A stretch of DNA of 24,330 nucleotides. Source: a virus. The position numbers and the translations under genes are program-made. Shown one piece after another: positions 2,851-19,000 of the stretch (positions are counted from its first letter, which is position 1; each line of letters opens with the position of its first letter). Below the pieces are notes generated by a model. That model was given only the letters and a program-made list of their open reading frames with translations, ran no database searches and was not told where the DNA came from. Location: positions 1 through 24,330 of the IMG/VR virus record IMGVR_UViG_3300018469_000082. One strand, written 5' to 3'.

Positions 2851-3074
2851 GCATGAAGACCGCCCGACTACCCAACGGAAGGACCATCGGCAGCGGAGCC
2901 AGCTTTGTGGCGAAGCAGGGCCGACACTTCCAGCGGCTGGTCCTGCGGACAGCCGGTGTCACCCGCCAGGGGGAGACATGGCTGGCCGCGGAAGACGACC
3001 ACGGGCGGATGCACTACTGCATGGCACGCGACGTGACATGCGTCCACATGGAAGGAGATACCAGTGAGCAGTGA
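2847..3074 (+). CDS. Small hypothetical protein
   Basis: Encodes 75 residues from an ATG that overlaps the upstream stop (ATGA at 2847-2850); a second ATG at 2853 is an alternative. The pattern RLPNGRTIGSGASF, then LVLRTAG, WLAAEDDHGRMHYC, suggests short beta strands, perhaps a small barrel-like fold. It has two cysteines (near residues 58 and 65) and no membrane segment. The last 11 bases overlap the start of the downstream HTH gene, so it belongs to the same tightly packed unit leading to the attachment site. Function unknown. Confidence 0.6.
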   Translation: MSMKTARLPNGRTIGSGASFVAKQGRHFQRLVLRTAGVTRQGETWLAAEDDHGRMHYCMARDVTCVHMEGDTSEQ

Positions 3075-3333
3075 CCTCCGGGCGGCGGTCGCTCCCGTAC
3101 TCGGCTGGTTGGAGGGGCTACCCCCCGAACAGCGAGCGAAGACCGCGCATGAGATGTGGGGGCAGCTCATCGAGATACAAGCCCAACTCGCCCGGGTGCG
3201 CCGATCAGGCGTCCGGGAGATGCGGGTCGATCACACCCTCGGGCAAATCGGGGAACTACTCGGGATCAGCATCACGAGGGTCAAGCAGATCGAGGCAGGA
3301 ATGGACAGAAAGGAGGTCACCAACAGCGGATAG
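3064..3333 (+). CDS. HTH DNA-binding protein next to attP (possible excisionase/regulator)
   Basis: Encodes 89 residues; GTG at 3064 with AAGGAG at 3051-3056. Residues 57-78 (HTLGQIGELLGISITRVKQIEAG) form a clear helix-turn-helix of the sigma-region-4/Xre-like type (hTLxxIGxxLGISxxRVxQIE). Residues 1-50 are helical and may mediate dimerisation. The gene ends inside the first arm-like repeat of the attachment site: its TAG stop is part of GATAGAACCG. It therefore abuts the integrase attachment region, the usual place for a recombination directionality factor or a lysogeny regulator. That role is inferred from position; the HTH call is from sequence. Confidence 0.7.
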   Translation: MSSDLRAAVAPVLGWLEGLPPEQRAKTAHEMWGQLIEIQAQLARVRRSGVREMRVDHTLGQIGELLGISITRVKQIEAGMDRKEVTNSG

Positions 3334-3392
3334 AACCGGAACCGGCTCCGAATAGAACCGGTCCCGGCCCAGCTCACGGCGGAATAGAACCG
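3329..3392 (+). repeat. Arm-type direct repeats 1-3, (G)AATAGAACCG
   Basis: Copies at 3329-3338 (GATAGAACCG, one base shorter), 3350-3360 and 3382-3392 (both GAATAGAACCG). The first contains the stop codon of the HTH gene, and the third ends at the tmRNA-like core. Probable integrase (or excisionase) arm-binding sites. Confidence 0.65.
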
Positions 3393-3430
3393 TGGAGCTG
3401 AGGGGAATTGAACCCCTGATCCATTCGGAT
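3392..3430 (-). other. 3'-end tmRNA (ssrA) fragment: attP core
   Basis: On the minus strand the sequence reads GGATC, then a T arm AGGGG-TTCAATT-CCCCT (3417-3401), then CAGCTCCAC (3400-3392). The acceptor strand CAGCTCCA is typical of tmRNA 3' ends, and the GGATC before the T arm resembles the P2 strand seen there (GGAC in E. coli). No anticodon loop fits upstream and there is no room for a whole gene, so this is a fragment, not a functional RNA. Phages that integrate into ssrA carry such a 3' fragment so that the gene is rebuilt after integration. Confidence 0.75.
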
Positions 3431-3455
3431 TCCCCAGCTCTTCGAGCAGGGGGAC

Positions 3456-3498
3456 GAATAGAACCGAACGAACCCTCGTTCGACAGGGAATAGAACCG
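3456..3498 (+). repeat. Arm-type direct repeats 4-5, GAATAGAACCG
   Basis: Exact copies at 3456-3466 and 3488-3498, spaced 32 bp like copies 2 and 3 on the other side of the core. Between them lies a 7-bp inverted repeat CGAACGA/TCGTTCG (3465-3471 and 3476-3482), which may be another binding site. Confidence 0.65.
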
Positions 3499-3523: not shown

Positions 3524-3546
3524 GAACGAAGGAATGTGAGTGAGCA

Positions 3547-4593
3547 GTGAGAGATATTCAACTTGGATATGAGTTGGTCGAGAGGTTTCTCGATCATCGG
3601 ATGAACGTCGAAGAGAACAGTCCGACAACGATTGCGTCGTACCGCAGGACGTTGTTCAAGCTGTCGAACTGGTTGGACGGGGCCAACCTGACTGACATCA
3701 CCTACAACGACCTGGACGATTTCGTGAATCGCCCGGTGCGAGCGGGTGATGGGACGACGGCCACAAAGCGTCCGGCAAGCAACACGTCCCGTCGCCAGCT
3801 GATGACGATCAAGGCGTTCTGGCGTTGGCTGATCGACGTGGAAGAGATTCCGGTGTCGAAGGACTCGAAGCGCATCCGCCGCAAGAAGGCACAGATTCCT
3901 GATGGGGTTCCGACCCCGGTGGATGACGCGACGTGGAACCTGGTGTGGGATTCGGACTTGGACCCGGATGACCGCATCTGGTTGGGTATGGCCTACTTCT
4001 GTGGGTTCCGCCGCTTCGAGCTGTTGTGGATCGCCCCGGAAGAGGTGCTGGTCGATGAGCGTGTGTTCGACTTCTTGCGGAAGGGGAAGCGGACGAGCGC
4101 ACGCAAGCGTCATCGTCTCCCGTACGGCGAGATCATCGAGGAACATCTGCGGCCCCGGATGCACACGATTGGGATGCACCGGATTGACGAGTGGTTGGAG
4201 CTGGTCGAGTGGCTGGCTACGTCGCGCCGTGGCGAGAAGTTCCTGTCGCCGTTGACGGTGGGCGAAGAGGTGGCCTTGGACCGGAACACGACGGTGTGGA
4301 TGCCGGTGGAGCGGGACAACGGACGGATCAACCGTCGCCTCGAACAGCTGTTGGTCGGGGTCGGGTTGGAGCGCAACGCGTTCCGGCCGCACGATCTGCG
4401 GGATTCGGCGGCGACCAACCTGTACCGAGCGGGCACCGATCTGCTGCGGATGGCGTGGCTGATGAACCACGACAAGCTGGACACGACTCGGGGCTACGCC
4501 CAGGTGTCAGCGGTGTACGAGGCCGAGCGCAGCCGCAACCTGCACGGCAAGCAAGGCGACGAGTGGGCCAAGCAAGGAGACGACAGCCGGTAG
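3547..4593 (+). CDS. int: Tyrosine integrase (site-specific recombinase)
   Basis: Encodes 348 residues. It would catalyse attP/attB strand exchange through a covalent 3'-phosphotyrosine. Catalytic residues visible: R155 in GFRRFEL, H282 and R285 in HDLR, H308 in MNHDKLDTT, and nucleophile Y317 in RGYAQ. Residues about 10-90 form the SAM-like core-binding domain (ENSPTTIASYRRTLFKLSNWL). A separate N-terminal arm-binding domain is not obvious, although the repeats next door look like arm sites. GTG at 3547 is the only start that keeps the whole core-binding domain; AAGGA at 3529-3533 is rather distant. Codons 3-8 (DIQLGY) are encoded by a copy of the palindrome, so a protein bound there would sit on the start of the gene. 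It lies immediately beside attP, as usual for phage integrases. Confidence 0.95.
   Translation: MRDIQLGYELVERFLDHRMNVEENSPTTIASYRRTLFKLSNWLDGANLTDITYNDLDDFVNRPVRAGDGTTATKRPASNTSRRQLMTIKAFWRWLIDVEEIPVSKDSKRIRRKKAQIPDGVPTPVDDATWNLVWDSDLDPDDRIWLGMAYFCGFRRFELLWIAPEEVLVDERVFDFLRKGKRTSARKRHRLPYGEIIEEHLRPRMHTIGMHRIDEWLELVEWLATSRRGEKFLSPLTVGEEVALDRNTTVWMPVERDNGRINRRLEQLLVGVGLERNAFRPHDLRDSAATNLYRAGTDLLRMAWLMNHDKLDTTRGYAQVSAVYEAERSRNLHGKQGDEWAKQGDDSR
3555..3569. promoter_or_regulatory. 15-bp palindrome copy 2 (TATTCAACTTGGATA), inside the integrase start
   Basis: One mismatch (C to T at position 4) from the perfect palindrome. It begins eight bases after the first base of the integrase GTG codon and shares the TGAGA left flank of copy 1. 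The mismatch may be tolerated because the site is also coding. Binding here could block transcription or translation initiation of the integrase. Confidence 0.7.
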
Positions 4594-8748: not shown

Positions 8749-8763
8749 TATCCAACTTGGATA
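8749..8763. promoter_or_regulatory. 15-bp palindrome copy 4 (perfect), over the primase start
   Basis: A perfect copy, one base after the stop at 8747. It contains the TTG (8757-8759) that is the only available start for the primase frame, since an in-frame stop (8745-8747) lies just upstream. This repeats the arrangement at the integrase, where a copy also covers the start of the gene. Confidence 0.75.
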
Positions 8764-9653
8764 TCTGCACTGAGTTCTTCATCTACCTGTTCCGGGGACG
8801 GGGCGATGCCTACGGGGCGTGGCATGGAGAGTCGATTCGTGCCCCGCTGACCCCTCAACACTTCCACCGTCACCTGACCAGCCCGGACCCGGCCGACTGG
8901 ATCGGGGTCTACAACGTGATCGGGGACCGGTGCTCGTGGGGCTGCATCGACATCGACACCGACGACTACGGGCTGGCCCGCAACCTCCGGGCGGCACTGC
9001 ACTACAAGGGCGTCCCGGCGTGGGTCGAGCAGACCACCCGGGGCTACCACGTATGGGTGTTCCCCCAGGAGGCTCTGGTCAGTGCGAAGACGATGAAGAA
9101 GGCGCTGACCGCGGCGTGCCGGGCCATCGACTACAGCCCGAAGGAAGTGTTCCCCAAGCAGATGCGGGTGCGGGGCGACGGGCTGGGGAACTACGTGCGG
9201 CTGCCGTTCAACGGGTACTGCGCTCGATCACCGGACGTGCGGCTGTTCGAGGACGTGGACCCGGCCGGGCCACTCTCGGACTTCCTCCGGGAGATGCACC
9301 GTCTCCGTGCGCCCACACCTCTGCTCGAAGGGCTGGCCGCGCTGCTCCCTGATCCACAGCGTGTGGACATCTCTGTGGACTTTCAGGCCGGGCTGGAAAT
9401 CGAAGAGGCCGTGGCCAACATCGGGGGGCTGGCCTACCGCATCTGGCGGGACGGCCCACTGATGGGCAGTGATCGATCCACCACCCTCGTTCACCTGGCC
9501 CGATTGATGGCCGAGCGCGACGTGCCACCCGACCAAGCCGCCGCCGTCCTGTCGTCAGCCGACGAGCGGTGGGGCAAGCGGTTCATCGACCGGGGCGAAT
9601 CCGGCCTGGCGATCATGCGCCGGATTGTGGACAAGGCGTACAGCGAACGATGA
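8757..9653 (+). CDS. Archaeo-eukaryotic-type primase (AEP, TOTE-like)
   Basis: Encodes 298 residues. Metal-binding motif CIDIDTDD (D65, D67), then TTRGYHVWVFP (H98; the sxH motif) and EVFPKQ...LGNYVRLPFNG (130-152), the same order as in AEP-superfamily primases related to the TOTE group. The likely role is RNA/DNA primer synthesis for the adjacent helicase. Residues about 215-298 are a helical C-terminal part (PriCT-like in position) with a segment resembling those found after AEP catalytic domains. The start must be TTG at 8757, inside the palindrome; no Shine-Dalgarno sequence is seen before it. An ATG at 8806 would cut into the domain. The stop overlaps the next gene as ATGA. Confidence 0.85.
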   Translation: MDICTEFFIYLFRGRGDAYGAWHGESIRAPLTPQHFHRHLTSPDPADWIGVYNVIGDRCSWGCIDIDTDDYGLARNLRAALHYKGVPAWVEQTTRGYHVWVFPQEALVSAKTMKKALTAACRAIDYSPKEVFPKQMRVRGDGLGNYVRLPFNGYCARSPDVRLFEDVDPAGPLSDFLREMHRLRAPTPLLEGLAALLPDPQRVDISVDFQAGLEIEEAVANIGGLAYRIWRDGPLMGSDRSTTLVHLARLMAERDVPPDQAAAVLSSADERWGKRFIDRGESGLAIMRRIVDKAYSER

Positions 9654-16019: not shown

Positions 16020-19000
16020 TCAGCCTCGAAGTGCAGCCAGGGCTTCAAGCCGGTCCATCTCATCGAGCTGCCCGTAGTACGCCGATCCCTGCTGCCTGCG
16101 CCTTTCCGCCGCCATCACCTCGGGGGTCATCTGCTTGCCGGGGAACCCGAGGAAGTTCCACAACGCCTGTGTGGTGCGGCCCTCCCGCTCGGGGGTGGTG
16201 CCGACGAGCCGGTTGATCTGCGCCAGCGGCGGGATCAGGTCCCGCACGATGTCGGCGCTCTGTTGGGGGACTGCTGTGCCGCCGCCAGGAATCTGTTCGG
16301 TCTGGCCGAGCATCCCCAGCACCGGTTCCAACCAGCTCAGCTCGGTCCCGCCGAGCTGCTGGTAGCTCTTCCCGTACGGAGCGCCGTAGAAGAAGTTCTG
16401 CCCGGTGAGCGCTTGGGCCGGGTTCTTCAACAGCGGGTTCAGGTTCGACAGCATCTTCATCGAGCCGAACTCGCGCAGTGACTCCTGCATCTGGCTGGGA
16501 CCGAACTCGGGAGCGAGCGCCACGCCCGGGGTGAGCCGGAACGCGCCCAGCTCCTTGAGGTACTTGGGCATCAGCGGGAAGCCCTGGCCCGAGTCCTCAT
16601 CGAAGTTCTTGCGGAACTTCTCGTAGGTCAGGTAGGTCTTGGGCCGCAGCATCATCTGCTGCATCTGCAGCGGGACGTTGCGGCTCATGTAGGTCCAGAA
16701 CGGGACCAGCTTCCGCATCTTGGCGTCGAACTCGGAGACGTGGCTGTAGTTGAAGTGGATGCGGTTGATCCGCTGCGTGGCCTCCGACACGGTGCCACCG
16801 TTCATCAACGTGTCCAACGCCAGCCCGGCTCGCACCCCGCCCTCGATGGCCTCGCCCACACGCCGGGTGAAGCGGACGGCCCGGTTCTGCATGACGGCCC
16901 GCTTCGCGCCCTTGGCCATCTGTCCGCTGGCGGCTGCGCCGACCTCGGCTGCGGAGAACCCGCCCCCGGCCCCGCTGCCGTACACGGCCCGCACCACGTC
17001 CTTGGCCTTGTCCTGGTACGCCTTCGGCAGCGTCTTCCACCATTCGCCTCGCGGGTTCTGACGGTACGCCGTCCAGAGCTTCACCCCGGCCCCCTGGTTG
17101 ATGAGTGAGGCACCATCGGAGGTGTTCATGAACATGGCACCGAGCGCGTTGCGGACGTGGAAGCCCGGGGTCATCGTGGCGTACGTCTTGAAGAACTGCG
17201 TGTAGGTGTCGAACAGCTTGCCGACCGGGCCGGGCTTGGCCTTGATGATCTTCTCGTTGATCTCGTTGAACGCCCGCTGCACGGTGCGGTCGATGGCCAG
17301 GTCCCGCCCGGTGACCTGCGAGGTGAAGGCGGCGAAGTTGTCCTTGAACACCGTCCGCATGATGGGCACGCCCTTGCCGCTGGCAAGCATCTTGGACATC
17401 TGGTCGAGGTGCTGTGCCCGAGCGTCGAGGTCCTGCATCTTGGGCACGATGTCCGCAGTGGAGCGCAGCAGGTCGAGCGTGGTCTGGTCGGCCCCCGACG
17501 AGGCGGCGTCGGTCATGTCCTTCACGAGCTGCTCGTAGGCCGCGGTCGTGTTGACCTTGGCCGGGACCGACACACCCTGAACTCGTTTCACTCGTTGCTG
17601 GGCGGTCCTCACACCGCGCTCGATGGCCACCGCGTCGTTCAGCCGTTCGTCGGCCTGCCCGGCGAGAATCTTGTCGGTGTCACCGAGGGCGAACCACTCC
17701 TTGCCGAGCGCTTGGGTCCGGGCGTTGATCCGGGTCTGGATGCGATCCGACACCTGCTGCGCGTAGTCCCGGTTGCCGATCATGTTCTGCAGCGTCTGAC
17801 GGTCGGCACCGAGCAGCTCGTTGTCCGCGATCTCCTTGGCCATCGTCTCGATGGGCTTGGCCAGTTTCGTCTCGGCCTCCCGGCCACCCCTCACGGTCGG
17901 TTCCAACGCCCCGATCTCGCCCGGGACCGCCAGCTCCCGCTCGTACTCCCCGGCCCGTTGCCGTGCCGCCATCTCACGGCGGGTGACAGCGGGCTGTCGG
18001 TTGGCCGACTGCGTGCGAGCCAACTGATCCAACTCGGCCTGGGCCTCGGGGGTGAGTGGCTGGCGCAACTCTGCGAGACGCTGATCCACCGTCTCCTGCG
18101 CGCCCCGGTAGCGCGCCCGCTCCCCGGCCAGCTCCTTGTACTTGCCGGGCTGGAAGTAGCTCGTCAGGTCCTGAGGTGTGGGCGCTTCTTCGAGCGCACC
18201 GCGTCGCGTCAGGAGATCGAACCAGTCCCCGGCCACCATGCCTTCGGTGCCACCGGCTCCACCGAGCCGGGCCACCCGCTGGTCCATCTCGCGCAGTGCC
18301 CGGGTCGTGCGGAGCGATTCGTCGCGGATCACTTCGAGCACCCGCGCCCTCGCTTCCGGGGGGATGCGCTCGAACAGGTCGGCCAGGAACTTGGCCCGCT
18401 GCTTCTGGCCTCGCCCGGCGATCATCGTGACGAGACGACCGGGACTGAGTGTCGCGCCCTTGCCCCGTCCACCGATGGCCCGCGGATGGATCGGACCCTG
18501 GGCTGCGCCCAGCCCGAGTCGCTTGGCCTCTGCTTGCGTGACCTCTGCACCGAGTGGCTCCAAGCCCTTGCCGCCCGCGAACAGTCGCTTCGGTTCGCCC
18601 GACAGTTCCTTCCACCGGGACCCGGTGAACCGTTGCAGCAACTCCCCGAATCCACGCGTCTCTTCGATCACCTTGTTGCGGGCGTAGGCATCGAGGTCGC
18701 TGACGATGGCCATCGTGTCGAACTTGCCGCCCAGGCCGATGTCTTCGACCTCGCCGCCGCGCAGGAAGGCTTCGACATCGGCCCCGCCCCCACCCTCTTC
18801 GGCCATCGCCTCGTCCACGAACTCTTGAATGTCGGTGTCTTCCAAACCTTCGGTGGTGCGACGACGCCCGCCGATGCCGAGCTGCTGGGCTGCCTCGTCG
18901 GCCTGCAGCTGTTGCAGCTCCTTGGTCATGATCTCGCCGGTCGCCTCGTTGATCCCTCCAAGTTCCTGGAACGAGCCGAGTCGGGCGAGCTGCTCGGGCG

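Follow-up and report, generated by a model that had tools for sequence, protein, structure and literature searches.

The recombinase IntI1 has no arm-binding domain, and at attI1 the same protein binds both the inverted core pair and the repeats DR1 and DR2 (PMC3518468). The IRS of TnpI (Tn4430, Tn5401) is made up of four subsites, an IR1-IR2 core and the direct repeats DR1-DR2, and lies just upstream of the recombinase gene (PMC7157771). These precedents show that direct repeats of this type can be used by armless recombinases. In the attP of cluster K phages (CrimD, Pixie), the integrase is held to contact 11-bp repeats through an N-terminal arm-binding domain (PMC3203893). A survey of tyrosine recombinases described control over the mobility of mobile elements as having been gained through an acquired arm-binding domain; in its count, simple recombinases were present in 27 phages and arm-binding ones in 410 (PMC8138268). 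The locus reported here has direct repeats that match a core half-site beside an inverted core, a layout like that of IntI/attI and TnpI/IRS, next to the integrase gene of a phage.

The window analysed in this study is the whole 24,330-nt stretch of DNA, a single linear IMG/VR virus record. Among the proteins it encodes are an integrase, a DnaB-like helicase, a PD-(D/E)XK exonuclease, RusA, an AEP primase and an amidase endolysin, and related helicase, exonuclease, primase and RusA genes occur in the same order in one podovirus record. The source is probably a temperate tailed phage, a podovirus of an actinobacterium. The AEP-TOTE-like primase (window 8757-9653) adjoins the DnaB-like helicase in a phage replication module, and a 2519-aa ORF on the minus strand (16020-23579) has no Pfam match and a weak PHROG match (phrog_36598). 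A second phage, the 43.6-kb contig L138, was reached via the helicase. It runs collinear with the window, with a DNA identity of about 67-77% across most of what the two share, and its integrase is 54% identical.

Layout of the attachment region

The features of the region and their counterparts in L138 are as follows.

3064..3333, plus strand: 89-aa HTH protein, sigma-70 region-4-like, 75% identical in L138
3328..3338, plus strand: putative accessory half-site P1, GGATAGAACCG; L138 counterpart GAATAGATCCG at 3374
3350..3360, plus strand: putative accessory half-site P2, GAATAGAACCG; L138 counterpart GAATCTAACTG at 3397
3382..3392, plus strand: putative accessory half-site P3, GAATAGAACCG; L138:3430 identical
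3393..3419, minus strand: tRNA-Ala 3' end, the segment common to the predicted attB; 27 nt identical to actinobacterial tRNA-Ala genes
3405..3413, plus strand: putative core half-site C', GAATTGAAC, which is the T loop GTTCAATTC; 8/9 match to the repeat unit
3412..3419, no strand assigned: predicted overlap (crossover) ACCCCTGA, 6-8 bp centred on 3415.5, from dyad geometry and the edge of tRNA-Ala identity
3418..3426, minus strand: putative core half-site C, GAATGGATC, phage-specific; 7/9 match to the repeat unit, L138:3467 identical
3430..3454, plus strand: hairpin in the gap separating the core from the right-hand repeats, z -3.4 (L138 z -4.0)
3456..3466, plus strand: putative accessory half-site P4, GAATAGAACCG; L138:3506 identical
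3488..3498, plus strand: putative accessory half-site P5, GAATAGAACCG; L138 counterpart GAATATAACCG at 3539
3547..4593, plus strand: Xer-like 'simple' tyrosine integrase, 348 aa, without an arm-binding domain (domain search, alignments)

This region is almost certainly the attP of the adjacent tyrosine integrase. The initial annotation had read it as an attP, and that reading stands: a tRNA-type 3' end lies between repeats, beside an integrase gene, and the arrangement is conserved in a second phage. Between P3 and P4 the minus strand (3393-3419) carries TCAGGGGTTCAATTCCCCTCAGCTCCA, a T arm and acceptor end of the tRNA type composed of TC, the T arm AGGGG-TTCAATT-CCCCT, CAGCTCC and A73. Neither ARAGORN nor Rfam found a complete tRNA or tmRNA in the region, as would be expected of an attP fragment. 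A small RNA was also considered for the region and rejected; the weak mascRNA-like and plastid matches are not conserved in L138.

In a search of the whole 24,330-nt window allowing 0-1 mismatch, GAATAGAACCG had exact copies at 3350, 3382, 3456 and 3488. A fifth copy at 3328 differs by one mismatch (GGATAGAACCG). All five are on the plus strand, and there were no copies outside these sites. When the window was simulated 100 times with a first-order Markov model, no 11-mer occurred four times in 200 bp, and the highest number reached was 2. The upstream HTH ORF terminates at the TAG within P1. The repeats and tRNA-like core of the initial annotation are real, and so are its 32-bp period on both sides and its third left-hand copy (intervals of 22, 32, 74 and 32). 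Its description of the repeats as mirrored applies to their positions but not to their orientation, since all five copies point in the same direction.

L138 has all five repeat sites and both core half-sites in the same order, with each interval in the att region 1 bp longer than in the window. Between the two phages 49/55 positions are identical in the repeat sites versus 72/116 in the spacers (Fisher p = 2.6e-4). In the core 44/48 positions are identical; over about 45 of them two differ, one being the T-loop purine (TTCGATT in L138). The hairpin stem is kept despite changed sequence. Helical phasing was set aside as evidence because it is good in the window (10.6 bp/turn) but not in L138. 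Searches for further relatives by integrase, HTH protein and core pattern returned only L138 again, and the system was found in only these two phages, which are related to each other. Two other candidates, a phage tRNA-Met (L002) and an unrelated tandem array (L122), were rejected, as they had only pieces in common. The latter (L122:6553-6650) belongs to an unrelated viral contig, has GGTTCTATTC/GGCTCTGTTC as its 10-bp tandem unit and adjoins a small ORF whose product is secreted-protein-like.

An armless integrase and seven candidate half-sites

The integrase has a core-binding domain at residues 11-97 and, by alignment, the catalytic residues R155, K179, H282, R285, H308 and Y317. As in the simple (Xer-like) recombinases, it consists of a core-binding and a catalytic domain only, with RKHRH + Y. 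It matches the XerC model at E 7e-20, below the equivalog cut-off. Because the core-binding domain begins at residue 11, the XerC alignment begins at residue 2 and the start codon is closely preceded by an in-frame TGA, the protein has no arm-binding domain. The last repeat is 48 bp from the start codon, which leaves no room for one, and in an alignment with an arm-bearing integrase residue 3 falls opposite residue 101 of that protein. In contrast, the integrase of L027, encoded next to a displaced tRNA-Ala end of an actinobacterial genome, has its core-binding domain at residue 109. Pairwise integrase comparisons were made with Brujita, L027, L127 and L130, and left out L124, L126 and L129, which were wrong-frame Xer extractions.

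The 9-mer of the repeat matches the core as an inverted pair, 8/9 at C' (GAATTGAAC) and 7/9 at C (GAATGGATC), the two being inverted relative to each other and 4 bp apart. Of random 9-mers from the window 0.05% had an inverted-pair score this high, and of shuffles 0.18%. Repeats and core half-sites share the consensus GAATNKAWC, and GAATNGAWC has six matches here versus 0.5 expected in the whole window. The positions that vary among the L138 repeats (GAATAGATC, GAATATAAC, GAATCTAAC) are largely those that vary in the core half-sites. Judged by sequence, the repeats and the half-sites of the core probably represent a single type of binding site, with the qualification that the T-loop half-site is constrained by tRNA function, so its resemblance to the repeats may in part reflect chance or mimicry. 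In a lambda-type system an N-terminal arm-binding domain precedes the core-binding domain and the arm repeats are unlike the core sites. Neither holds for this integrase or these repeats, and the initial annotation's naming of the repeats as arm-type was not borne out.

The reading that appears reasonably probable, if well short of secure, is that an armless Xer-like integrase integrates this attP into tRNA-Ala by binding seven half-sites, two in the core and five accessory. The phage integrase would recombine attP with a host tRNA-Ala gene at the 3' end of that gene, two protomers sitting on the inverted half-sites, C' in the T loop (3405-3413) and C at 3418-3426. Strand exchange would fall in the 6-8 bp between C' and C, inside 3412-3419. 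On its right side the identity with tRNA-Ala stops where an 8-bp overlap centred in the C'/C dyad would stop; a 28-mer beginning ATC, which would extend the host tRNA match beyond that edge, had no match in genome_contigs. On the other side, the most frequent sequence among host tRNA-Ala genes is GAAGAGGTC, which matches the consensus at 7/9. The phage-borne tRNA 3' end would restore the host gene at the prophage end that carries the HTH gene, and a lysogen would read tRNA-Ala gene, then CGGTTCTATTC repeats. The five direct half-sites (3328, 3350, 3382, 3456, 3488) would be gripped by the same DNA-binding surface of the integrase, and these accessory sites would mark attP and possibly set direction, in the role of lambda-type arm sites, perhaps with help from the HTH protein. 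The chances seem evenly balanced that a single DNA-binding surface serves both core and 'arm' recognition and that integration is controlled through seven copies of one half-site, including the T loop itself.

The best surviving alternative also has the attP target tRNA-Ala, with the integrase binding the core only and the repeats bound by the 89-aa HTH product, another directionality factor or a repressor. The HTH ORF ends in the first repeat, its product is conserved along with the array and would be suited to directly repeated sites, and the armless Brujita system functions without arm sites (PMC7194413). However, this alternative leaves unexplained why the repeats resemble the core half-sites beyond chance, and the repeats lie on both sides of the core rather than in a single promoter-proximal cluster. 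It is regarded as unlikely, and the HTH protein itself is a candidate directionality factor or regulator. Far more doubtful is the idea that the repeats are operators for int or the HTH operon with no role in recombination: they do lie between the HTH gene and int with a hairpin among them, but they are placed symmetrically on either side of the core and look like its half-sites, and no sigma-70-like promoter was found.

The target gene

The initial annotation had placed integration in ssrA, the tmRNA gene, and took as a refutation that no 3' end of an actinobacterial ssrA shares at least 20 identical bases. When 30 actinobacterial tmRNA genes were located with Rfam RF00023 and compared with the core, at most 13 nt were shared, which for these 30 genes refutes the placement, whereas identity with actinobacterial tRNA-Ala reached 27 nt inside the core as first annotated and up to 30 with flanks. 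This identity takes in both the T arm and the acceptor of the tRNA 3' end. When genome_contigs was scanned for the 24-mer AGGGGTTCAATTCCCCTCAGCTCC, at least 119 loci matched; among the matches listed, the actinobacterial loci (Acidimicrobiia, Geodermatophilaceae, others) were tRNA-Ala genes or a few displaced tRNA-Ala 3' ends, and tmRNA-gene loci occurred only in Bacilli, Clostridia, Helicobacteraceae, Patescibacteria and Tenericutes. A 31-nt pattern allowing up to 3 mismatches had matches in 56 of 296 actinobacterial genomes. Every listed match had a tRNA variable loop, the loci read with ARAGORN were tRNA-Ala, and none of those listed was of the tmRNA type. The L138 variant of the core fits tRNA-Ala as well.

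In letters the two targets differ little (26 nt for tmRNA and 27 for tRNA-Ala), so the argument rests on host phylum. The tRNA match itself and a GC content of 62-68% point to an actinobacterial host, and the integration target would be the 3' end of its tRNA-Ala gene. An attP aimed at ssrA with lambda-type arm sites finds some agreement in the 26-nt segment, which recurs unchanged at the 3' ends of tmRNA genes in Bacilli, Clostridia, Helicobacteraceae and Patescibacteria, and in cluster K1 mycobacteriophages, which integrate in tmRNA with 11-bp arm repeats around the core (PMC3203893), but the exact tmRNA matches are mostly in low-GC taxa, the integrase has no arm-binding domain, and with the shortfall in actinobacterial tmRNAs this proposal becomes the least probable of those considered. 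For Actinobacteria these comparisons largely refute an ssrA target.

No close relative of the integrase was found in the 296 and 396 sampled actinobacterial genomes, nor was a lysogen or an attL/attR pair. Actinobacterium IMCC26256 carries a tRNA-Ala(GGC) gene (L053:580-653) and two further copies of its 3' part (1609-1632 and 3812-3835), such as integrative elements leave. In L027 a displaced tRNA-Ala 3' end (405-428) lies beside a 415-aa integrase (514-1761) with about 100 extra N-terminal residues, another element with tRNA-Ala as attB.

Comparison with described recombinases

In the limited literature searched, no description was found of an armless integrase with direct-repeat accessory sites in the attP of a tRNA-targeting phage. 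Such a phage lineage may have arrived at a complex attP, possibly a directional one, with no arm-binding domain in its integrase. If spare core half-sites do serve an armless integrase as arms, the arrangement would be an intermediate solution or an alternative one, and it would offer a compact integration tool for tRNA-Ala.

The integrase resembles Brujita gp33, also a 'simple' tyrosine recombinase of an actinobacterial phage (PMC8138268, PMC7194413; PDB 5vfz), though the sequence match is weak. Brujita has no arm-type sites, no comparable repeat family was found in its int-repressor region, and its attP lies within the repressor gene, whereas here there are five repeats and the core, which starts at 3393, is outside the HTH ORF, which ends at 3333. 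The cluster K attP likewise has 11-bp repeats around a T-arm core, which are direct repeats in Pixie, and a hairpin in the gap separating the core from the right-hand ones. However, CrimD uses tmRNA and Pixie tRNA-Lys, and the arm-binding domain of their integrases is absent here. TnpI/IRS shares with this locus a tyrosine recombinase with a core and direct repeats just upstream of its gene, but it serves transposon resolution with two accessory sites and no tRNA target. IntI1/attI1 shares the armless recombinase, the inverted core pair and the direct repeats, to which binding of the recombinase is predicted here as well. It differs in that attI1 has two accessory sites on one side only and captures cassettes with no tRNA target, whereas this phage has five putative ones flanking the core and a predicted target in tRNA-Ala.
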